Source: Kaistella sp. SH40-3
GTDB taxonomy: Bacteria > Bacteroidota > Bacteroidia > Flavobacteriales > Weeksellaceae
Direction: 5' to 3'
NCBI RefSeq assembly: GCF_030686865.1
Contig: NZ_JAQYUS010000003.1
Span: 1 to 64,000, forward strand
DNA: 64,000 nt
Part shown: positions 8,788-46,860 of the stretch, one piece after another
Position numbering within the stretch: position 1 is the stretch's first letter
Layout: each line of letters begins with the position of its first letter
The notes under the pieces: model-generated
Databases searched by the model: none
What the model saw: only the letters and a program-made list of their open reading frames with translations
What the model was told of the DNA's origin: nothing
Program-made: the position numbers and the translations under genes

Positions 8788-9100
8788 TATTTTTAGGTGT
8801 TAGGTGGTGGGTATTAGTTAATGGTTGATAGTTGATAGTTGATAGTTGATAAAAGTAGAACTTTAGTTTATGGATTACTAGTTTTTTGGTTCTTAGTTTC
8901 TATTTATACATGAATGAATTTTTAGACGGGGTTTGCGTGAGGGCGGAGTGCATTGTTGGAGCTCTTTTTCTGTGGCTGGTTTGGCGCTGGCGGAAAAAAG
9001 CGACTGCACGTAGACCGACCATTTTTTGTGTTGGCTTTATTGGTGCTGTAAAAAATGGGCACGCCCAAAATAATTCAAACAAAAGTAGTAAATTTGCGCC
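8788..9100. other. Repeat-bearing intergenic gap
   Basis: About 310 bases between mce and rbfA. It holds the GTTGATA heptamer array (8824-8851) and, at about 8960-9005, a GC-richer imperfect palindrome (GCTCTTTTTCTGTGGC facing CTGGCGGAAAAAAGCG). Short frames on both strands cross it, but none looks like a gene. Confidence 0.5.
8824..8851. repeat. Heptanucleotide array GTTGATA x4
   Basis: Four perfect consecutive GTTGATA units. The same heptamer family recurs at 39878-39912, 41083-41138, 42825-42852 and 43242-43269. Confidence 0.85.
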
Positions 9101-37913: not shown

Positions 37914-38510
37914 ATGAATACCGAAGAACTTTCAACAGAAGATAAAATCCTGATCGCTGCCTCAAAAGTTTTCACTGAAAAAGGTTTTTCAGGCACGCGA
38001 ACACGCGACATTGCGGAGGAAGCCGGAATTAATTTGGCGCTTCTCAATTACTATTTTCGAACCAAAGAAAAACTGTTTGAACAGGTGATGAAAGTAAAAA
38101 TCGTTTTACTTTTCGGACAAATTATTCCAATTGTTACCAATGAGAAAACGTCTTTAGATGAAAAAATAGATTTAGCGAGTGTAAAATACTTTGAAATTCT
38201 ATCAAAAAATCCAAATCTTCCAATTTTTGTTTTAAGTGAAATTCAGAAGAAAACCTCGGATGTGAAATCGATTCTTCCTTTTGAAAAAGTATTGAATAAT
38301 TCCTATTTAATGAAACAGATTAAAGAAAGAAAACCCGACGTTAATCCTTTTCACTTTTTATTGAATTTTCTAAGCATGACCGTATTTCCCTTTTTAGGAA
38401 AACCCATTCTTCAATCATTTGATTTAATGAATGATGAAGAATTTCAAAAATTCGTAGAAGAAAGAAAAACGATGGTTCCAATGTGGATTAAGATGATGCT
38501 GAATAATTAA
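37914..38510 (+). CDS. TetR-family transcriptional regulator
   Basis: 198 residues. The N-terminal HTH reads AASKVFTEKGFSGTRTRDIAEEAGINLALLNYYFRTKEKLFEQV (about 14-57), the classic TetR_N pattern. The C-terminal helical domain (about 70-198) would bind an inducer. It is the first gene of a cluster with TolC-, HlyD- and ABC-type export genes, so it probably represses that pump and its own promoter. Palindromes at 37845-37860 and around the promoter are candidate operators. A repeat hairpin follows the gene and may partly terminate transcription. Confidence 0.88.
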   Translation: MNTEELSTEDKILIAASKVFTEKGFSGTRTRDIAEEAGINLALLNYYFRTKEKLFEQVMKVKIVLLFGQIIPIVTNEKTSLDEKIDLASVKYFEILSKNPNLPIFVLSEIQKKTSDVKSILPFEKVLNNSYLMKQIKERKPDVNPFHFLLNFLSMTVFPFLGKPILQSFDLMNDEEFQKFVEERKTMVPMWIKMMLNN

Positions 38511-38528
38511 CTTTTTAAAAACGACGAT

Positions 38529-38615
38529 TGTCATGCTGAATGGAACAAAGTGAAATGAAGCATCTCTTCAAATAATAAAGATTCTTCATTCCGTTTCACT
38601 TCATTCAGAATGACA
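38529..38615. repeat. Long imperfect inverted repeat TGTCATnCTGAATG...ATCT
   Basis: A 37-base left arm (38529-38565, beginning TGTCATGCTGAATGG and ending GAAGCATCT) faces a right arm at 38579-38615 with 28 of 37 complementary positions. It is a REP-like element between tetR and the TolC gene. Similar TGTCATTCTGAA elements are widespread in Bacteroidetes. Its right arm covers the upstream frame start of the TolC gene, so the ATG at 38631 is preferred. Confidence 0.75.
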
Positions 38616-38630
38616 AAAACACATAAGAAA

Positions 38631-39878
38631 ATGAAAATTTTAAAATATCTTTTCCTCCTCCTCTTCTTCTCCGGCAATGCTCAAACATTGAACTTAGAAG
38701 AATGTTACAATTTGGCCAAGCAAAATTACCCGCTCATTAAAAGACACGATTTAATTGCGAAGACCAAAGAATACAATTTACAAAATGCGGCGAAAGGTTG
38801 GCTTCCACAAATTCAAATTGTAGGACAGGCAACTTATCAAAATGATGTCATCCAGTTTCCAATTCAACTGCCTAATATGACCATCGAACCGGTGAGCAAA
38901 GATCAGTATAAAGTATATGCCGACGTTCAGCAAAACATTTACGATGGCGGAATGATTGCCAATCAAAAGAAAATGGCAACCATCAATTCTGAAATAGAAC
39001 TTCAAAAAACAGAAGTTGAAACCAATCAGTTAGAAATGAGAATCAACCAAATTTATTTCGGAATTCTACAAACCGATGAACAACTTCAACAAACAGAATT
39101 AACCAAATCTGACTTATCAAGCGGATTGAAAAAAGCCGAAGCACAATTAGAAAACGGCGTTATCTTTCGAAGTAATGTTGATGTTTTGAAAGCACAAATC
39201 GTCAATCTCGAACAAAAACAAATGGAACTTCAATCGACTAAAAAAAGTTTCCTGCAAATGCTTTCTCTTTTCATTAATAAAAATATTGACGAAAATACTA
39301 CATTAGAAAAACCTGAAAAAATTCTGATTCAAGATGAAAATAAACGTGCAGAACTGAAACTCTTTGACTTGCAAAAACAAGGTTTAGAACAGCAGAAAGC
39401 GAACATCAACTCGAAAAATCTTCCAAAAATCGGAGCCTTCTTTCAAGGTGGTTATGGAAAACCAGGTTTCAATATGTTAAAAAATGAATTCGATATTTTC
39501 TACATCGGCGGTTTGCGTTTAAATATTCCAATCTCTGGATTTTACACCAGGAAGAGTGACTTGGCTTTGGTCGAAACCCAACAGCAGGAAATCGACGTTC
39601 TTAAAGAAAACTTCCTTTTCAATCAGCAGTTTCAAACCATTCAGAACAACAGCGACCTCGATAAAATCCAGCAATTGATTAATAAAGACAATGAACTCAT
39701 CGAATTGCGGGAAAGCATTAAGAAAGCCTCTTTAGCACAGTTGGAAAACGGTGTTATTACCACCAATGACTATCTGCGAGAAGTGAATGAACTCGACCGC
39801 GCAAAAAATCAAAAAATCATCCACGAGATACAGTATCTTTTAACACAATATAATTTGAAAGCACAACTTAATCAGTAG
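38631..39878 (+). CDS. TolC-family outer-membrane efflux protein
   Basis: 415 residues from ATG 38631, starting with a signal peptide (MKILKYLFLLLFFSGNAQ). The domain begins LNLEECYNLAKQNYPLIKR, the TolC/OEP pattern, and contains two long helical repeats with GWLPQIQIVGQATY and NLPKIGAFFQGGYG. It would form a trimeric outer-membrane exit duct for the HlyD- and ABC-type partners encoded downstream. Its stop codon TAG is the first part of the heptamer array at 39878-39912. Confidence 0.88.
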   Translation: MKILKYLFLLLFFSGNAQTLNLEECYNLAKQNYPLIKRHDLIAKTKEYNLQNAAKGWLPQIQIVGQATYQNDVIQFPIQLPNMTIEPVSKDQYKVYADVQQNIYDGGMIANQKKMATINSEIELQKTEVETNQLEMRINQIYFGILQTDEQLQQTELTKSDLSSGLKKAEAQLENGVIFRSNVDVLKAQIVNLEQKQMELQSTKKSFLQMLSLFINKNIDENTTLEKPEKILIQDENKRAELKLFDLQKQGLEQQKANINSKNLPKIGAFFQGGYGKPGFNMLKNEFDIFYIGGLRLNIPISGFYTRKSDLALVETQQQEIDVLKENFLFNQQFQTIQNNSDLDKIQQLINKDNELIELRESIKKASLAQLENGVITTNDYLREVNELDRAKNQKIIHEIQYLLTQYNLKAQLNQ

Positions 39879-39912
39879 TTGATAGTTGATAGTTGATAGT
39901 TGATAGTTGAAA
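39878..39912. repeat. Heptanucleotide array GTTGATA x4 plus GTTGAAA
   Basis: Five heptamers follow one another; the first base is the G of the TolC stop codon TAG. Same family as 8824-8851, with the array beginning exactly at the end of the gene. Confidence 0.85.
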
Positions 39913-39944
39913 ATTAAATACAGAACTCTTTTAAAAAACTTCTG

Positions 39945-40916
39945 ATGAAAAAATATATTTTATTTGCAGCCCTACTTTCCCTCGCTGCCTGCAATAATTC
40001 AGATAATTCCTACGACGCATCGGGAACTTTCGAAGCCGATGAACTCATGGTCACTGCCAAAGCCAATGGGACGATTCTGCAACTTAATGTAGAAGAAGGT
40101 CAGCAATTGTCAATCAATGAAAAAGTAGGCGAAATAGATCCAAAGAATGTAGAACTTCAAAAGGAACAGGTGATCGCAAGCATGGATGCAATCGAGCAAA
40201 AAACGAATTCTGCTCTTCCGCAAATTCAGGTCTTGCAATCTCAGATATCCGGACAGTCTGCGAATGTTTCCGTTTTACAGGAACAACTTCAAAATGCAAT
40301 TCGGGAAAGAAACAGAACTGCAAATTTAGTGGCCAAAGATGCCGCAACAAAAAAGCAACTCGATGATGCGAACGGACAAATAAAAGTGATTCAGAAACAG
40401 ATTGCTGCGGCTCAAAGTCAGTTGAATATTTTACAGCAACAGATTTCCACCACCAAAGAAAATGTCTCGATTCAAAACCGCGCGATTTTAAGTGAAAGAA
40501 AACCAACCGAGAAAAAGGTGGCGCAAATCGATGAACAGTTAAAAAATAATACGATTGAAAGTCCGATCTCCGGAATGGTTTTAACGAAATACCTGAATCA
40601 AGGTGAGTTTGCGACGGTTGGAAAACCTATTTTTAAAATGGCAAATTTAGAAGTGATGACTTTAAAAACCTTCGTGACCGGAGATCAATTGCCACAGATA
40701 AAAATCGGACAACAGGTGAAAGTTCTCATCGATGCGGGTGAAACGAAAACCAAAGAACTTCCAGGAACAATTTACTGGATCAGTTCAAAAGCCGAGTTCA
40801 CACCGAAAACCATTCAGACCAAAAACGAACGAGCCAATTTAGTATACGCTGTAAAAATCCATGTGAAAAATGATGGCTACCTCAAAATCGGAATGTACGG
40901 CGACGTGAAATTTTAA
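39945..40916 (+). CDS. HlyD-family membrane fusion lipoprotein
   Basis: 323 residues with a lipoprotein signal (MKKYILFAALLSLAAC, Cys16). A barrel-sandwich/biotinyl-lipoyl-like half-motif (VTAKANGTILQLNVEEGQQLSINEKVGEID) and its partner near 205-235 (IESPISGMVLTKYLNQGEFATVGKPI) flank a coiled-coil hairpin (about 70-190). It would couple the inner-membrane ABC permeases to the TolC duct. The C-terminal barrel follows. It is in the same operon as the TolC and ABC genes, of the YbhGFSR type. Confidence 0.88.
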   Translation: MKKYILFAALLSLAACNNSDNSYDASGTFEADELMVTAKANGTILQLNVEEGQQLSINEKVGEIDPKNVELQKEQVIASMDAIEQKTNSALPQIQVLQSQISGQSANVSVLQEQLQNAIRERNRTANLVAKDAATKKQLDDANGQIKVIQKQIAAAQSQLNILQQQISTTKENVSIQNRAILSERKPTEKKVAQIDEQLKNNTIESPISGMVLTKYLNQGEFATVGKPIFKMANLEVMTLKTFVTGDQLPQIKIGQQVKVLIDAGETKTKELPGTIYWISSKAEFTPKTIQTKNERANLVYAVKIHVKNDGYLKIGMYGDVKF

Positions 40917-40939
40917 AATAAAAAAAACGAAAGAATTCA

Positions 40940-41073
40940 ACCACAAAGTCACAAAAGATTAAGGGAAATTATTGGAAATAAAAGATCACAAAATGGAGAG
41001 ATATAAACACTCAAACTTTTACGGTCTTTTGATTAACTAAAAAATTGCAGTTAACTTTTGTCTCTTTTGCGGT
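40940..41073. repeat. Imperfect inverted repeat ACCACAAAGTCACAAAAG / CTTTTGTCTCTTTTGCGGT
   Basis: The left arm near 40940-40962 and the right arm at 41050-41073 are imperfectly complementary (ACCrCAAArnnACAAAAGnTTAA). It fills the gap between the HlyD gene and the ATPase A gene. Confidence 0.55.
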
Positions 41074-41082
41074 AAAAAATCC

Positions 41083-41138
41083 TTCAACTGTTAACTGTTA
41101 ACCGTCAACTGTCAACTGTCAACTGTCAACTTTCAACT
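41083..41138. repeat. Heptanucleotide array, eight units (TTCAACT/GTCAACT family)
   Basis: Eight consecutive heptamers on the plus strand: TTCAACT, GTTAACT, GTTAACC, four GTCAACT, TTCAACT. The array ends 7 bases before the ATPase A start and is the inverted orientation of the GTTGATA arrays. Confidence 0.85.
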
Positions 41139-41145
41139 AAAAAAA

Positions 41146-42069
41146 ATGAAACCAATCATCGTCAACAATCTCACTAAAACCTACGGCAAGAAAACTGAAA
41201 AAGTGCTTGCAGTGGATGACGTGAGTTTCGACGTGAATCCTGGAGAAATATTCGGATTAATTGGACCCGACGGTGCAGGGAAAACTTCCATCTTCAGAAT
41301 GCTGACCACGGTACTTCTACCCGATTCTGGTTCTGCTTCAATTGAGGGTTTTGATATGGTGAAAGATTATAAAGAAATTCGGAAAATTTTGGGTTATATG
41401 CCGGGACGATTTTCACTCTATCAGGATTTAACGATTGAAGAAAATCTGGAATTTTTTGCGAGTGTTTTTAATACGACCATTGCAGAAAATTACAAATTGA
41501 TCAAAAACATCTATATTCAAATTGAACCTTTTAAAGATCGAAGAGCCGGAAAATTATCAGGCGGAATGAAACAGAAACTGGCTTTATGCTGCGCCTTAAT
41601 TCACAAGCCGAAAGTTTTATTTCTGGACGAACCCACAACTGGTGTTGATCCCGTTTCGAGAAAAGAATTCTGGGAAATGCTCCGGCGTTTAAAGTTACAG
41701 GGAATCACCATGGTCGTCGCCACACCTTATATGGATGAAGCGGCTTTGTGTGACCGAATCGCTTTAATGCAACACGGAAAAATTCTTTCAATCAATACTC
41801 CGGAAAAAATCAGCAATTCCTATCCTGATTTACTTTTCGAAGTAAAAGCCGGACGAACTGCAAATGTATTGCGTGCTTTGGAAAACTTCGACCAAAAGAA
41901 AAATGTCTATGCATACGGAGAATTTGTGCATTTAAGTGTGGAACAGTCTGATAATTTTAACATCGAAAGCATTACAGAATATTTGAAAAAAGAAGGATTT
42001 GAAAATATTGAAATTAATCCCATCAAAGCCAGTATAGAAGACAGTTTTATTCGCTTATTATCCAATTAA
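41146..42069 (+). CDS. ABC transporter ATP-binding protein A (YbhF N-half-like)
   Basis: 307 residues. Walker A is GPDGAGKTS (a Asp instead of the usual Asn), the signature is LSGGMKQKL, and Walker B is VLFLDEPTTGVDP. The H-loop reads MVVATPYMDEAALC, so the switch His is replaced by Pro. This degenerate-His, canonical-signature form is the counterpart of ATPase B. The C-terminal ~75 residues (EVKAGRTANVL) are an accessory domain. With ATPase B it should energise export by the two permeases. It is preceded by an array of heptamers and followed after 1 base by ATPase B. Confidence 0.9.
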   Translation: MKPIIVNNLTKTYGKKTEKVLAVDDVSFDVNPGEIFGLIGPDGAGKTSIFRMLTTVLLPDSGSASIEGFDMVKDYKEIRKILGYMPGRFSLYQDLTIEENLEFFASVFNTTIAENYKLIKNIYIQIEPFKDRRAGKLSGGMKQKLALCCALIHKPKVLFLDEPTTGVDPVSRKEFWEMLRRLKLQGITMVVATPYMDEAALCDRIALMQHGKILSINTPEKISNSYPDLLFEVKAGRTANVLRALENFDQKKNVYAYGEFVHLSVEQSDNFNIESITEYLKKEGFENIEINPIKASIEDSFIRLLSN

Positions 42070-42070
42070 C

Positions 42071-42826
42071 ATGATGACTTCAGACAACCATAATATCGCT
42101 ATAAAAGCAGAAAACATTACCAAAACTTTTGGTGATTTTACGGCGGTTGATCACATCAGTTTTGAAGTAACCAAAGGGGAAATCTTCGGTTTCCTGGGAG
42201 CGAATGGTGCCGGAAAAACTACAGCGATGCGGATGTTCAGCGGACTTTCCATTCCGACTTCCGGAACTGCGACGGTCGCGGGCTTTGATGTTTATAAAGA
42301 ACCGGAGAAGATTAAAAAGAACATTGGTTATATGAGTCAGAAATTTTCTTTGTATGGAAATTTAACGGTGAAAGAAAACCTCAATTTCTTCGGCGGAATC
42401 TACCGAATACCGAGAAAAGACTTAAAAATAAAACGCGATGAACTCATCAAAGAACTGGGTTTAGAAAATGAAAAAAATAAACTGGTTTCTCAACTTCCTT
42501 TGGGCTGGAAACAGAAACTCGCTTTCTCAGTTGCTATTTTTCATGAGCCACAAATTGTATTTTTAGATGAACCCACGGGCGGCGTAGATCCTGTTACCCG
42601 ACGTCAGTTCTGGAATATGATTTATGATGCTTCAGATCGTGGAATTACGATTTTCGTCACGACTCATTATATGGATGAAGCCGAATATTGCGATCGCGTT
42701 TCGATTATGGTTGACGGAAAAATTGCCGCCTTAGAAACTCCAGCACAATTGAAAAAACAATTCAATGCGCAAAATATGGACGACGTTTTTTATGAATTAG
42801 CACGCGGAGCGAAACGATCAGAATAG
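42071..42826 (+). CDS. ABC transporter ATP-binding protein B (YbhF C-half-like)
   Basis: 251 residues (MMTSDNHN; the second Met at 42074 is possible). Walker A is GANGAGKTT, Walker B is IVFLDEPTGGVDP and the H-loop His is present (FVTTHYMDEAEYC). The signature is degenerate: SQLPLGWKQKLA instead of LSGGQ. It pairs with ATPase A so that only one composite site is complete. The stop codon TAG at 42824-42826 lies inside the left heptamer array, and the four-helix-bundle gene separates it from its permeases. Confidence 0.9.
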   Translation: MMTSDNHNIAIKAENITKTFGDFTAVDHISFEVTKGEIFGFLGANGAGKTTAMRMFSGLSIPTSGTATVAGFDVYKEPEKIKKNIGYMSQKFSLYGNLTVKENLNFFGGIYRIPRKDLKIKRDELIKELGLENEKNKLVSQLPLGWKQKLAFSVAIFHEPQIVFLDEPTGGVDPVTRRQFWNMIYDASDRGITIFVTTHYMDEAEYCDRVSIMVDGKIAALETPAQLKKQFNAQNMDDVFYELARGAKRSE

Positions 42827-42852
42827 TTGACAGTTGATAGTGGAAAGTTGAT
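42825..42852. repeat. Left heptamer array flanking the four-helix-bundle gene
   Basis: Four heptamers (AGTTGAC, AGTTGAT, AGTGGAA, AGTTGAT). Bases 42831-42851 are perfectly complementary to 43250-43270 (21 bp), so the two arrays form a terminal inverted repeat around the small gene. Confidence 0.9.
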
Positions 42853-42883
42853 AGCGAAAACCAAAACGATAAAATTTTAAAAT

Positions 42884-43246
42884 ATGGAAAATAATACGGC
42901 AGCCGAAAAATCAATAGCATTTTCAATTCGACTGATTAAAATTTACAAAATATTGACCCAAGATAGAAAAGAATATATTCTATCAAAACAATTATTGCGC
43001 AGCGGAACTGCTATTGGTGCGTTAATTAGAGAGGCAGAACACGGTCAATCCAAAGCAGATTTTCTAAACAAAATGAACATCGCTTTGAAAGAAGCAAATG
43101 AAACTGATTATTGGTTACTCCTCCTCTACAAAGGCGAATTCTTAAATGAAAAAGAATATCAATCAATTATAGAAGACTGCACAGAACTATTAAAAATGCT
43201 CATAAAAATAGTAAAAACAACTAAAGAAAATTTAGGCAGACAGTAA
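42884..43246 (+). CDS. Four-helix-bundle protein (23S rRNA intervening-sequence / bAvd family)
   Basis: 120 residues, one compact helical bundle. The family hallmarks are LIKIYKIL, LSKQLLRSGTAIGALIREAEHGQSKADFLNKMNIALKEANETDYWLLLL and ILKMLIK-type C-terminal helices. Related proteins are encoded by intervening sequences inside 23S rRNA genes and are homologous to the bAvd protein of diversity-generating retroelements; they are thought to bind nucleic acid. Here it lies within an ABC-transporter operon between 21-bp inverted repeats, and its stop codon is part of the right array. Function is unknown in this setting. The domain call is secure. Confidence 0.9.
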   Translation: MENNTAAEKSIAFSIRLIKIYKILTQDRKEYILSKQLLRSGTAIGALIREAEHGQSKADFLNKMNIALKEANETDYWLLLLYKGEFLNEKEYQSIIEDCTELLKMLIKIVKTTKENLGRQ

Positions 43247-43269
43247 CTGTCAACTTTCCACTATCAACT
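43242..43269. repeat. Right heptamer array flanking the four-helix-bundle gene
   Basis: Four heptamers AGTAACT, GTCAACT, TTCCACT, ATCAACT; the stop codon TAA of the small gene is inside the first. Bases 43250-43270 are perfectly complementary to 42831-42851. The permease ATG follows at 43276. Confidence 0.9.
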
Positions 43270-43275
43270 GAAGAA

Positions 43276-44376
43276 ATGAAACAGTTAATCACTTTTGTTA
43301 AAAAAGAATTCTGGCACGTACTGCGTGACAAAAGAACTTTGTTGGTTCTTTTCGGAATGCCAGTTGTGCAGGTTCTGCTCTTTGGTTTTGCTTTAAGTAC
43401 TGAAGTGAAAAACACTAAAATCGGTGTTTTAGATCAGGACAAATCCCAAAATTCCATCGAACTCATTTCGAAAATTAAGGCCAACCAATATTTTGATGTT
43501 GACAAAAATTTGAAATCGATCGACGAAGCAGAAGACGCTTTCAAAGGCGGAAAAATAAAAATGATTTTGGTAATTCCGGCGCAATTTTCCCAAGATATAA
43601 ACAGTGGCAAAAAAGCGCAACTGCAACTCATCACCGATGGAACTGATATTAATTTGGCGAACCAAATCTATAATTTCATGTCGAATATTATAATAGATTT
43701 TTACGGTCAGAAAACACTGCAGCCCAAGTCCGGCGTACAACCGGAAATCCGCATGCTCTATAATCCGCAACTGAAAGGCGCACCCAATTTCGTTCCCGGC
43801 GTCATGGCTTTAATTCTTTTGATTATTTGTGTTTTGATGACCGCCATCGCCATCGTGCGCGAAAAGGAAATGGGCACCCTGGAAGTATTACTCGTATCGC
43901 CCATGAAACCGTACATTATTATTTTAGCCAAAGCAATTCCGTACTTTATTTTATCGATGATCATTTTGGTTTCAATCCTGATTTTGAGCGTCACCGTCCT
44001 CGATTTACCCATCAAAGGAAGTCTGCTTTTGCTTTTCGGAATCAGCATTATTTTCATTATCACCAATCTGCTTTTAGGAATTGTAATCTCAATCGTCACC
44101 GACAGTCAGCAAACCGCCATGCTTATTGCCTTGGTGGGAACTATGCTGCCAACAATTATGCTGAGTGGCTTTATGTTTCCCGTCGAAAATATGCCGCTTC
44201 CTTTACAAATGATTGGCAACGTAATCCCGGCAAAATGGTATTATGAAATCGTCAAAAACATCATGATCAAAGGAACCGGCCTGGAAGTCATCTGGAAACA
44301 CGTGCTCGTCCTCATCGGAATGATGATGGTTTTATTCGTCATCGCCGTGAAAAAATTTAAAATAAGATTAGAATAG
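43276..44376 (+). CDS. ABC transporter permease (YbhS/YbhR type), first
   Basis: 366 residues of the ABC2 membrane type 3 family. One transmembrane helix near residues 20-40 (VLFGMPVVQVLLFGFALS) is followed by a large extracytoplasmic domain (about 45-165) and five more helices, with IVREKEMGTLEVLLVSPMKPY as the conserved coupling segment. It is an inner-membrane half-transporter that works with ATPases A and B and a second permease gene, separated by 400 bases. Confidence 0.9.
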   Translation: MKQLITFVKKEFWHVLRDKRTLLVLFGMPVVQVLLFGFALSTEVKNTKIGVLDQDKSQNSIELISKIKANQYFDVDKNLKSIDEAEDAFKGGKIKMILVIPAQFSQDINSGKKAQLQLITDGTDINLANQIYNFMSNIIIDFYGQKTLQPKSGVQPEIRMLYNPQLKGAPNFVPGVMALILLIICVLMTAIAIVREKEMGTLEVLLVSPMKPYIIILAKAIPYFILSMIILVSILILSVTVLDLPIKGSLLLLFGISIIFIITNLLLGIVISIVTDSQQTAMLIALVGTMLPTIMLSGFMFPVENMPLPLQMIGNVIPAKWYYEIVKNIMIKGTGLEVIWKHVLVLIGMMMVLFVIAVKKFKIRLE

Positions 44377-44779
44377 AAAAATGATAATAGACCGCTTCGC
44401 TGATAGATAAAAGATAATAGACAGGATTTGAAAATGTATAAAAATGAAAATAATTATTTGGGCAGACATTTCCGCCTGAGTCTACCCTGAGCCTGTCGAA
44501 GGGCTCCCGCTTTTTTTATTGGTGGCTTCGACAGGCTCAGCCATCAAAAATAAAAGGATTTCCGCTCAAATCACGAATGTGATTCGACGATTCAATTAAA
44601 AAATATAAATAAGAGAGTCAAGTCGGGCTGCAGGTTTTTTATAAATTGAAAAGTACAATAAAACGTAGGAAAGTTGCAAAAGCCTTTGCTAAGCGAAGCG
44701 CCGTTGTGCCCATAAAAAAAGGACTACAAAAAGTATAAAACCCTTTGCGGACTTTGCGTTTAAATAGATTTAAAATAAA
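44377..44779. other. Repeat-rich gap between two permease genes
   Basis: The gap contains GATAATAGAC-type repeats near 44385-44435, the REPIN-like pair at 44485-44542, and an ACTTTGCG-type repeat near 44745-44760. I see no gene. The other permease of the same transporter follows, so the gap is a later insertion of repeats rather than an operon boundary, as far as can be inferred. Confidence 0.55.
44485..44542. repeat. REPIN-like pair of palindromes (TGAGCCTGTCGAAG / CTTCGACAGGCTCA)
   Basis: CCCTGAGCCTGTCGAAGGG (44485-44503) and GGCTTCGACAGGCTCAGCC (44524-44542) face each other; 14 bases (44488-44501) are perfectly complementary to 44526-44539. The sequence resembles REP elements seen in many bacteria. 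Confidence 0.75.
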
Positions 44780-45904
44780 ATGTTTAGAACATTATTCATA
44801 TTAATCAAAAAAGAATTCCTGCAGATATTCAGGAACAAATCCATATTGGCCATCATTTTCGTGATGCCGGTGATTCAGTTGGTGATTCTTCCTTTGGCCG
44901 CAAACTATGAAATAAAAGATATTAAAATCGCCGTCGTCGATCACGATAAATCAACCCAATCCCGCGAACTCATTCGGATAATTACGGCGTCGGGATATTT
45001 TAAAATTATGGATTACGGCGAGAATTACAACGACGCCTATCAGGAAGTTGAAAAAGACAAAATAGATTTAATCCTTGAGATCCCGAATAATTTCGAAAAA
45101 GATCTGGTGCGCGAAAACAATGAAAAAGTAGTAATCGCCATCAATGCTATCAATGGAACAAAAGCCGGACTTTCCGCCAGTTATCTTGGACAAATTCTGC
45201 AGAATTACAATCAGCAAATTCAGTTAGAAATGAATCCGGAACTGGAAACGGTGAAGAAAAATTCTGGCTTAGAAATCGTGCCGAAATTCTGGTTTAATGA
45301 AACCTATAATTACCGACTTTCATTGGTTCCCGGCATCCTGGCATTTCTGGTGACTTTAATCGGTGGCTATTTGACCGCATTGAATATCGTAGAAGAAAAA
45401 GAAATCGGAACCATCGAACAGATTAATGTGTCGCCAATTAAGAAAAGAGATTTCATTTTAGGAAAATTAATTCCGTTCTGGATCTTATCAATGGTTGCTT
45501 TTACCATCGGACTTTTGGTCACGATATTCGTTTACAAAATTCAAATGCAGGGAAGTTATCTCCTCCTCTATGCTTTCATTTCCGTTTACCTCATCGCGAT
45601 TTTGGGCATGGGACTTTTGGCTTCAGTTTATAGTGATACGCAACAACAATCAATGTTTATGGTCTTCTTTTTTATGATGATTTTCATCCTAATGAGCGGA
45701 CTTTTCACGCCGACAGAAAGCATGACCGACTGGGCAAAATATATCGCCTATTTAAATCCGGTCACTTATGGTGTCGATGGTGTACGTTTAATAATGTTGA
45801 AAGACAGTGGTTTTATGGATCTGCTTCCGCACTTTGGATTTATTATCGGACTGGCTATTGTGGTTATTTCGTGGTCTGTTTTGCGCTATCACAAAACAAG
45901 TTAG
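44780..45904 (+). CDS. ABC transporter permease (YbhS/YbhR type), second
   Basis: 374 residues. As in the first permease there is one N-terminal helix (SILAIIFVMPVIQLVILPLAANY), a large extracytoplasmic domain (about 45-170) with SGLEIVPKFWFNETYNYR, then five helices and the coupling segment IVEEKEIGTIEQINVSPIKKRDF. It would heterodimerise with the first permease. Although 400 bases of repeats separate them, both belong to the tetR-tolC-hlyD-ATPase cluster. Confidence 0.9.
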   Translation: MFRTLFILIKKEFLQIFRNKSILAIIFVMPVIQLVILPLAANYEIKDIKIAVVDHDKSTQSRELIRIITASGYFKIMDYGENYNDAYQEVEKDKIDLILEIPNNFEKDLVRENNEKVVIAINAINGTKAGLSASYLGQILQNYNQQIQLEMNPELETVKKNSGLEIVPKFWFNETYNYRLSLVPGILAFLVTLIGGYLTALNIVEEKEIGTIEQINVSPIKKRDFILGKLIPFWILSMVAFTIGLLVTIFVYKIQMQGSYLLLYAFISVYLIAILGMGLLASVYSDTQQQSMFMVFFFMMIFILMSGLFTPTESMTDWAKYIAYLNPVTYGVDGVRLIMLKDSGFMDLLPHFGFIIGLAIVVISWSVLRYHKTS

Positions 45905-46003
45905 AAAGCAGAAGTTAGATGGTAGAGAAAGAGCATTGATTTCTTAATGATTCAAATCATAAGAAAATGTATTTATAAACCTTATCTTTAAATATTTACA
46001 AAA

Positions 46004-46375
46004 ATGAAAAAAACAATACTTCTTATCATCCTCGTTCTCTTCGGAGCCGTAACGGTTTTCATGAGCAGTTCGGTGCTTTTCGACTGGTTTGGAATTCGGG
46101 CAAAAGAGGGCAATTACGTTCCCGGAATTGTCTGGGCAAATTTTGTTTGTGGAATTCTTTATCTGGTTGCAGCCTACGGAATTTTCCGTAATCAAATATG
46201 GGCCAGATTTCCTTTAACAATAGCATTAATCATTTTAATTCTCGCTTATATTGGTTTATTTATTCACATCAATAATGGTGGATTATATGAAACAAAAACT
46301 GTCGGAGCCATGGCTTTCCGCATTGGAGTAACCGCACTATTTTTATATGCAACAACAAAAAGTTTTAATAAATGA
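46004..46375 (+). CDS. Small four-helix membrane protein
   Basis: 123 residues with four predicted membrane helices (about 4-27, 43-62, 70-88 and 100-118), with FDWFGIRAKEGNYVPGIVWANF and RNQIWARFPL in the loops. I do not recognise a domain. Its stop overlaps the following lipoprotein gene start (ATGA), so the two are made together. Function unknown. Confidence 0.65.
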   Translation: MKKTILLIILVLFGAVTVFMSSSVLFDWFGIRAKEGNYVPGIVWANFVCGILYLVAAYGIFRNQIWARFPLTIALIILILAYIGLFIHINNGGLYETKTVGAMAFRIGVTALFLYATTKSFNK

Positions 46376-46860
46376 AAAAGATTATTTTATCAGCCCTGTT
46401 GGCCTTAGCAATCGTAATTTCTTGTGATAAAAAACAAGAATCAAAAACGGAACTCTCAACGACAGAAGAAATTGCGGCAGAAGGGCACTCAGATCATGAT
46501 GCTGCAGAAAAATCAGATGAGCATGATGAGTCCGTGAAATTAGAACTCAATAACGGTGCAAAATGGGCGATGAATGCCGAAATGAAACCGTTCATCAATG
46601 AAATGGAAAGTCAGGTAAAAGCCTACGATCCGGTAAACGGTGATTTCAAAATGCTGGGCAAAAACCTGAGTGAAACCAATGAAAATTTAATAAAAAGTTG
46701 TACCATAAAAGGAACGCCGCACGATGTTTTGCACGCTTGGTTAATGCCGCACATGGAGTTAATCGATGATTTAAAGAAAGCAGAAAATAAAGAAGCGGGA
46801 AATAAAATTGTAGAAGAATTAAAAGAATCTATGGAGAAATACCACGAGTATTTTAACTAA
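46372..46860 (+). CDS. His-rich lipoprotein
   Basis: 162 residues with a lipobox (ALAIVISC, Cys18). After a Glu/Lys-rich linker comes a His-rich stretch (EGHSDHDAAEKSDEHDES), then a helical domain with KLELNNGAKWAMNAEMKPFINEM and SCTIKGTPHDVLHAWLMPHMELIDDL. It is probably an envelope lipoprotein able to bind metal ions (Zn or Cu), inferred only from the His residues. It overlaps the upstream membrane gene by four bases; no metal-transport genes are adjacent. Confidence 0.7.
   Translation: MKKIILSALLALAIVISCDKKQESKTELSTTEEIAAEGHSDHDAAEKSDEHDESVKLELNNGAKWAMNAEMKPFINEMESQVKAYDPVNGDFKMLGKNLSETNENLIKSCTIKGTPHDVLHAWLMPHMELIDDLKKAENKEAGNKIVEELKESMEKYHEYFN

Follow-up and report, generated by a model that had tools for sequence, protein, structure and literature searches.

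A gene of the 23S rRNA intervening-sequence protein family between opposed heptamer arrays in an ABC-efflux operon of Kaistella: one case of a widespread class of probably slow-moving units

Results

The IVP gene, its arms and its host operon

The window analysed here, a stretch of 64,000 nucleotides from Kaistella sp. SH40-3, carries on its forward strand an ABC-efflux operon in which the genes for ATPase B (42071–42826; Pfam PF00005) and for an ABC-2 permease (43276–44376; PF12698) are separated by a small forward-strand gene (42884–43246) encoding 120 amino acids. An earlier note on this DNA had placed the small gene between the ATPase and the permease of one efflux pump and in the protein family encoded by 23S rRNA intervening sequences (IVSs), and both assignments are borne out by the domain matches of the neighbours and by those of the protein itself, which exceeds the curated cut-offs of both Pfam PF05635 (E 5.9e-27, 94.4 bits against 33.8) and NCBIfam TIGR02436 (102.9 against 24). 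PF05635, a family of four-helix bundles, takes its name from proteins encoded in 23S rRNA intervening sequences, here called IVPs. Among solved structures, sequence comparison found a single relative, PDB 2rld (E 1e-40), an entry of five chains for a protein of Bacteroides thetaiotaomicron. Solved members of the family are pentamers according to a reference title cited in the available portions of PMC3936711 and PMC10053308, with which the five chains of 2rld agree. The PADLOC defence-system search with the IVP protein returned no match.

The gene is enclosed by two arrays of AGTTGAT-type heptamers. The left arm (42825–42854, forward strand) runs in tandem from the ATPase stop codon as AGTTGAC, AGTTGAT, AGTGGAA, AGTTGAT and a final AG, its paired part being 42831–42854; the right arm (43247–43270, forward strand) is the reverse complement of the left over 24 nt with one mismatch, so that 23 of 24 positions pair (96%), 21 of them in one uninterrupted run. 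The perfect 21-nt complementarity between 42831–42851 and 43250–43270 claimed in the earlier note was recomputed and is correct. Both flanking stop codons had been described as parts of the repeat units: by eye, the ATPase stop TAG (42824–42826) does overlap the first left unit, whereas the IVP stop TAA (43244–43246) belongs to an additional, degenerate repeat of the right array, just outside the paired 24 nt. Between the arms lies the IVP ORF alone, with no transposase. No Rfam family matches in 38500–46500 and no terminator-like site was found in 42700–43400, while promoter-like matches number 3 against 2.1 expected; one of these (10/12), at 42848–42875, falls within the left arm and upstream of the IVP gene, given which the gene may also be transcribed from a promoter of its own. 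In the predicted minimum-energy RNA fold, computed for a stretch picked because the repeat was already known, the arms pair in a 24-pair stem that closes over the IVP gene (z -4.57 against 100 shuffles). The IVS-like unit of the earlier note, an IVP gene with inverted ends between co-directional protein genes, is thus seen as such, its stem being predicted.

Inverted flanks are a property of IVP genes

Arms were scored throughout by one fixed gapped local alignment of the left flank against the reverse complement of the right flank, with a threshold of at least 14. At random positions of the window, scored in this way and equally spaced, the threshold is reached in 11 of 4000 draws and the maximum is 21.5, a value equal to the score of our locus, which may itself be among the draws; none of 21 other small ORFs of the window reaches the threshold. 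In five relatives the arms at the same ABC junction score 16.0, 14.0, 10.5, 15.5 and 17.5, and pairing of a species' own two arms tops its row in only two of six species. The perfect 21-bp pairing is particular to our genome, and its perfection is not conserved.

Our genome holds seven PF05635 matches, all seven between co-directional genes, and five of them have inverted flanks (17.0, 16.0, 24.5, 21.5 and 29.5), each with its own repeat as judged by eye; the other two score 12.5 and 12.0, the latter being a decayed gene with five stops. By profile search all 36 Kaistella genomes contain IVP matches, 209 in total, of which 116 were analysed (7 from our genome and 29 + 80 from relatives); since these are mostly the better-scoring matches, weak or decayed genes are under-sampled. 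Among them 68 of 116 (58.6%) reach 14, as does at least one locus in 30 of 42 groups defined by junction, compared with 2.7% of 3000 mispaired flanks and 2.6% of the 116 loci when only the right flank is reversed; direct repeats reach the threshold in 13.8%. Beyond the genus, an IVP match is found in 193 of 247 Bacteroidota genomes (183 over the cut-off). Loci among the best matches of the other Bacteroidota reach 14 in 41 of 69 cases (one of 70, L316, was cut by a contig end and omitted) against 2.3% for mispaired flanks, and loci of our own IVP subfamily do so in 20 of 29, which leaves 48 of 116, 28 of 69 and 9 of 29 loci of the three sets below the threshold. In plasmids, for which 12 of 26 records were taken (nine cyanobacterial, a Treponema, a Monoglobus and a Bernardetia), 12 of 12 loci score at least 19 with a wider flank of 250 bp; one of them has a perfect 39-bp inverted repeat of TAATTCG units, and direct repeats outscore inverted ones in three of the 12. 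Within two 50-kb stretches of Nostoc plasmids the IVP genes score 39.0 and 28.0, and the only other genes reaching 14 (1 of 56 and 1 of 37) are both annotated as IS630 transposases. The IVP gene with inverted arms is a widespread class, of which our locus is one case.

Orientation and host junctions

In Kaistella the IVP gene reads with both neighbours at 110 of 116 loci (++), the other six lying at divergent or convergent junctions and none being antisense to both (--); grouped by junction to allow for kinship, the counts are 37 of 42 and none. As background, 53 of 61 adjacent ORF pairs of the window are on the same strand. The phylum set gives 56 ++, 3 +- and 5 --, with a neighbour missing at 5 (n = 69); our subfamily gives 18 ++, 5 +- and 2 --, with a neighbour missing at 4 (n = 29); and on plasmids 7 of 12 genes read with both neighbours, 2 are antisense to both and 3 lie at divergent junctions. 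All five +- loci of the subfamily are downstream of a presumed hypF and may be shadow ORFs, on the strand opposite to a presumed hypD. The host junctions of Kaistella presumably include groES–groEL, carA–carB, trpE–trpG, sufC–sufD and thiolase–acyl-CoA dehydrogenase, among others. The units sit in operons and read with them, with exceptions.

Occupancy of the ABC junction and selection on the gene

A permease match identified the ABC junction in 28 Kaistella genomes, of which G022 (50% identical) was left out; among the remaining 27, three carry the intact IVP gene, two only a 3' fragment and three repeat arrays without the gene, while 12 have a short junction (12–18 nt including the stop), six have 38–176 nt without the gene and one (L050) was unscored. 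The earlier note had proposed to look for exact empty sites in relatives, and short empty sites do exist in the form of these 12 junctions; the presence of the unit at the same place in all relatives, which the note had named as counting against its idea, is not what is found, the intact gene being in just 3 of 27. The IVP gene of this junction also occurs in Halpernia humi, a Weeksellaceae MAG and a Chitinophagaceae MAG, in the last of these with an internal stop, and the IVP genes of the ABC junction group together in the tree (support 90). By eye no target-site duplication was seen at the junction, for which the nearest clean empty site is in a relative with a 92% identical permease and too diverged in the intergenic part. 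A proposal that looping out restores the spacing of an empty site fits the ABC junction (4 + 5 nt against 9 nt from stop to start in relatives with a 12-nt gap) and is not general, the corresponding values at the thiolase junction being 35 nt and about 18–20 nt.

The ratio dN/dS of the IVP gene is about 0.05, like the 0.03–0.05 of the neighbouring ATPase, a degree of purifying selection which shows that the protein is used. Between our genome and G014 the dS of the IVP gene is 0.28 against 0.82 for the ATPase, which hints at exchange or at an extra constraint on DNA or RNA.

The arms follow the lineage of the gene

The linkage of gene and arms was analysed in 138 loci with an arm score of at least 14, giving 8856 non-orthologous pairs; non-orthology was judged from our own ORF calls, so that a few orthologous pairs may have slipped through. 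The overlap of arm 5-mers rises with IVP identity, from 0.07–0.08 below 50% through 0.10 at 50–55%, 0.17 at 55–60% and 0.21 at 60–70% to 0.245 above that. The corresponding Spearman correlation between arm alignment similarity and IVP identity is weak (0.12) and is reached by none of 500 permutations; below 50% IVP identity it is absent. The earlier note had asked for IVP genes between like heptamers in other genomes, and such loci exist: arms of the AGTTGAT/AGTGGAA kind recur at the presumed hypF–hypD junctions of distant Bacteroidota, with IVPs 56–58% identical to ours. The 138 arm-bearing loci showed no pair of near-identical copies at different sites; outside the plasmid set their closest non-orthologous pair is 78% identical. 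One gene without arms (L154) shares 83% identity with a type B gene (see below) located elsewhere. In the IVP tree, 14 labelled junctions require 14 changes, the minimum being 13 and the mean after shuffling 60.6, which suggests mostly one arrival per junction followed by inheritance and loss. This tree has 105 columns and many unresolved forks; it is built from Kaistella and own-subfamily genes other than those with internal stops, without the other phylum loci, and the type C genes described next are not a labelled group in it.

The junction between thiolase and acyl-CoA dehydrogenase, scored in 30 of 36 Kaistella genomes, presents three types of IVP gene, A in nine genomes, B in five and C in seven, alongside three empty sites (21–23 nt), four pairs of opposed arms without a gene (two C-like and two B-like) and two sites with something else. 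Identity is 43–55% between A and B and 14–26% between C and either, against 58–97% within a type, and each type has by eye distinct arms, those of type C being A+T-rich (at one type C locus, L399, the right arm alone is clear). Type C falls in another part of the IVP tree than A and B, so that the junction has been colonised at least twice. That the arms follow the IVP lineage, and that three types, empty sites and remnants are found at one junction, indicates that gene and arms form one unit that has been inserted, inherited and lost. The mobility proposed by the earlier note thus gains support from the states of this junction and from related gene-plus-arm units at non-orthologous sites; presence and absence at one site, several independent insertions, and related gene and ends elsewhere are what was found of the features of a mobile element. 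In genome G011 some 13 kb separate the armless type B gene L154 from a thiolase junction (L395) with B-like arms and no gene.

Solo arrays

Arrays of the AGTTGAT type also occur without an IVP gene. Two in the window lie on the forward strand, at 8816–8852 and at 39877–39913, the second beginning at the stop of the ORF 38610–39878 in the same operon as our unit; an arm-like array of opposite orientation (41093–41138, reverse strand; 41108–41138 when delimited more narrowly) immediately precedes the ATPase A start (41146). The ORF 38610–39878 has the look of an outer-membrane efflux gene, and the ORF 39945–40916 of the same operon, which we likewise assume from its look to be a membrane-fusion gene, is enclosed by the arrays 39877–39913 and 41093–41138, opposed and of the same heptamer. 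Pairing between these two, over a distance of 1.2 kb, is conceivable, as is competition with the stem around the IVP gene.

Allowing up to two mismatches, AGTTGAT arrays are found at 13 other places in our genome. Ten clear solo arrays lie nearer to one gene end and have a fixed outward polarity, five in sense after a stop and five antisense before a start (at L013 the gene in question is a short ORF). The unit's own arms share this polarity, which agrees with an origin of the solo arrays as remnants without proving it. Similar operon junctions hold intergenic repeats of other types, such as ACGCAATGGCGCAA with its complement at L040 (genome G003) and, in the window at 40935–41090, CACAAAGTCACAAAAGA with CTCTTTTGCGGT.

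Mismatches and co-variation in the arms

Two analyses of the arms bear on selection for pairing as RNA. Among the arm mismatches of 109 loci there is no enrichment of G-U pairs, 84 being of the G-U type and 142 of the A-C type; the bias on the sense strand is the reverse of the expectation for an RNA stem and may be an effect of base composition. Within a gene lineage the arms of 89 loci do not co-vary, 41 pairing better with their own partner than across loci and 43 worse. A first pass had suggested compensatory co-evolution, with 54 of 81 loci favouring their own partner and 26 the reverse, and was withdrawn: the signal came only from partners below 60% IVP identity (42 against 5, n = 48), that is, from different element types. 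Neither analysis supports selection for RNA pairing.

Discussion

The structure of the unit, its orientation bias, the linkage of arms to gene, the sites found empty or with remnants, the two or more independent insertions at a single junction and the purifying selection acting on the gene are the directly supported elements of what we consider, with fair though far from full confidence, to be a small, slow-moving cassette, in which an IVP gene is combined with two ends of its own and which has settled in operons. The ends would be opposed arrays of a repeat of about 7–9 nt whose sequence belongs to the IVP lineage, and the cassette would settle between co-directional genes, typically close after a stop and before the next start, where its expression would come probably mainly by read-through from the host operon. 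Long vertical inheritance with frequent loss would follow, sometimes leaving arms or gene fragments behind. In such a scheme the IVP would recognise the repeat arrays of its own ends, and the opposed arms would pair in the host mRNA, with the cassette looped out by the resulting stem and perhaps cut away by RNase III as in rRNA IVSs, so that a mostly selfish element is tolerated. The parts of this scheme differ in strength. That the arms serve mainly as recognition ends for mobility seems to us reasonably probable, as this fits the linkage between gene and arms better than RNA pairing does; true excision of the cassette by RNase III, suggested by analogy with rRNA IVSs, is possible and rather to be doubted.

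The rival that we take most seriously, while judging it somewhat improbable, is a plain element of the DNA transposon kind, whose arms would be terminal inverted repeats read as DNA and moved in trans, with the RNA stem a by-product and the co-orientation a need for read-through. It would account for arms that act as element ends tied to gene lineage, for the arms-only remnants (4 of 30 at the thiolase junction), which resemble MITEs, for the sharing of such flanks in the two Nostoc plasmid stretches by IS630 transposases only, and for the failure to detect RNA-level selection in the G-U and co-variation analyses. However, the unit has no transposase, its arms are variable tandem arrays rather than fixed termini, its strong sense bias would be unusual for a DNA transposon, and no target-site duplication was visible by eye, the intergenic sequence being too diverged at the nearest clean empty site.

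Retention as a domesticated operon module, in which the IVP and the stem tune the host operon in its processing, stability or subunit ratio, appears unlikely. Strong purifying selection (dN/dS about 0.05) is what it would predict, as is the filling of the same junctions in several species, many of these junctions, such as the presumed groES–groEL, carA–carB, trpE–trpG and sufC–sufD, joining genes that belong to a single complex or pathway, but the distribution is patchy (intact at 3 of 27 ABC junctions, cleanly absent from 3 of 30 thiolase junctions) and unrelated IVP types fill the same thiolase junction. A chance placement of IVP genes between two heptamer arrays, in which the intergenic DNA of Bacteroidota would abound, could appeal to the 13 other AGTTGAT places in our genome and to the arrays at the ABC junction in 3 of 27 genomes without the gene; this is very improbable and was rejected, as the pattern is lacking in mispaired flanks, in other small ORFs (0 of 21) and in other plasmid genes (2 of 93, both transposases), and the arms go with the lineage of the gene. 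Bacteroidota commonly undergo DNA inversion at inverted repeats, and an invertible switch that flips the gene between its own was considered for that arrangement and is rejected in Kaistella as next to impossible, both orientations being expected where 110 of 116 are ++ and none is --.

The closest known counterpart of the cassette proposed here is the 23S rRNA IVS with its IVP/S23p ORF, as in Coxiella and Leptospira (and the IVS of Salmonella), with a protein of the same family, a similar size and complementary stem ends. The Coxiella IVS measures 428 nt, has a stem of 28 bp with one mismatch and a bulge and is cut by RNase III in vitro, and older suggestions hold that IVSs are or were mobile (available text of PMC4990558). 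In contrast, the host here is a protein-coding operon, without an Rfam match in 38500–46500, and the arms are tandem heptamers; the stem around the ORF is present by prediction, and excision is putative. MITEs and insertion sequences likewise have shared inverted ends, presence or absence at a site and gene-less derivatives, from which our unit differs in the lack of a transposase, in array ends that vary by lineage and in its sense orientation in operons. Avd, the accessory protein of diversity-generating retroelements (DGRs), belongs to a related four-helix bundle family, whereas here the IVP ORF stands alone between its arms; PF05635 is said to resemble Avd, and IVP genes to occur in DGR surroundings, in the available text of PMC10053308.

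Intergenic heptamer repeats are a further point of comparison. Arrays of this kind, among them the TAACTGA repeats and the cyanobacterial short tandem heptamer repeats, which are presumably those termed STRRs, are also found in intergenic DNA, many near gene starts and in the same phyla, and the arms of Nostoc-type plasmid IVPs are such arrays. TAACTGA arrays are reported from Beggiatoaceae, Cyanobacteria and Bacteroidetes, with the comment that for their spread 'no mechanism is evident' and that the distribution of XisH/XisI resembles that of the heptamer repeats (available text of PMC4679880), and the main text of that paper contains no match for S23, 23S rRNA or intervening. On our plasmid set, the IVP genes at L358 and L359 of Nostoc adjoin XisI, and that at L359 also XisH. 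The cassette may offer a direct hypothesis for these long-puzzling repeats, as cassette ends and their remnants. Genes that often bear only the annotation 'four helix bundle protein' become parts of a defined unit, one that has ends of its own, prefers certain sites and can be followed through its history.

IVP genes are recorded in several other settings: 18 in cas loci (PMC3936711), in a figure legend on associations of the CRISPR adaptation module (PMC10910872), in rRNA insertions of CPR bacteria (PMC11270868), adjoining transporter genes in a UCYN-A assembly (PMC11637426) and in an expression table of Flavobacterium (PMC5787105). The available portions of these five papers and of PMC10053308 make no mention of repeat arms outside rRNA, and a search of the open-access literature, with few subscription papers and no bioRxiv preprints, likewise found none described for IVP genes outside rRNA in the text available; this kind of cassette is apparently undescribed. 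In its widest form, which we put forward tentatively and with our doubts slightly the heavier, the proposal would be that IVP genes with lineage-specific heptamer arms constitute a large unrecognised class of minimal, operon-specialised mobile elements, that the pentamer of each IVP is specific for the 7-mer array of its own element, in DNA or in RNA, that the host mRNA has the element either looped out or excised, and that the heptamer arrays of Bacteroidota and Cyanobacteria are its ends and remnants, with hitch-hiking as a possible cause of the association with CRISPR and defence operons. The guilt by association of IVPs in CRISPR loci may then reflect cassettes lodged in operons. Three of the plasmid loci have the IVP unit inside a defence operon, flanked by drmD and pglX at L365 (Planktothrix), by hsdS and hsdR at L362 (Monoglobus) and, in antisense, by cas2 and cas1 at L367 (Anabaena).
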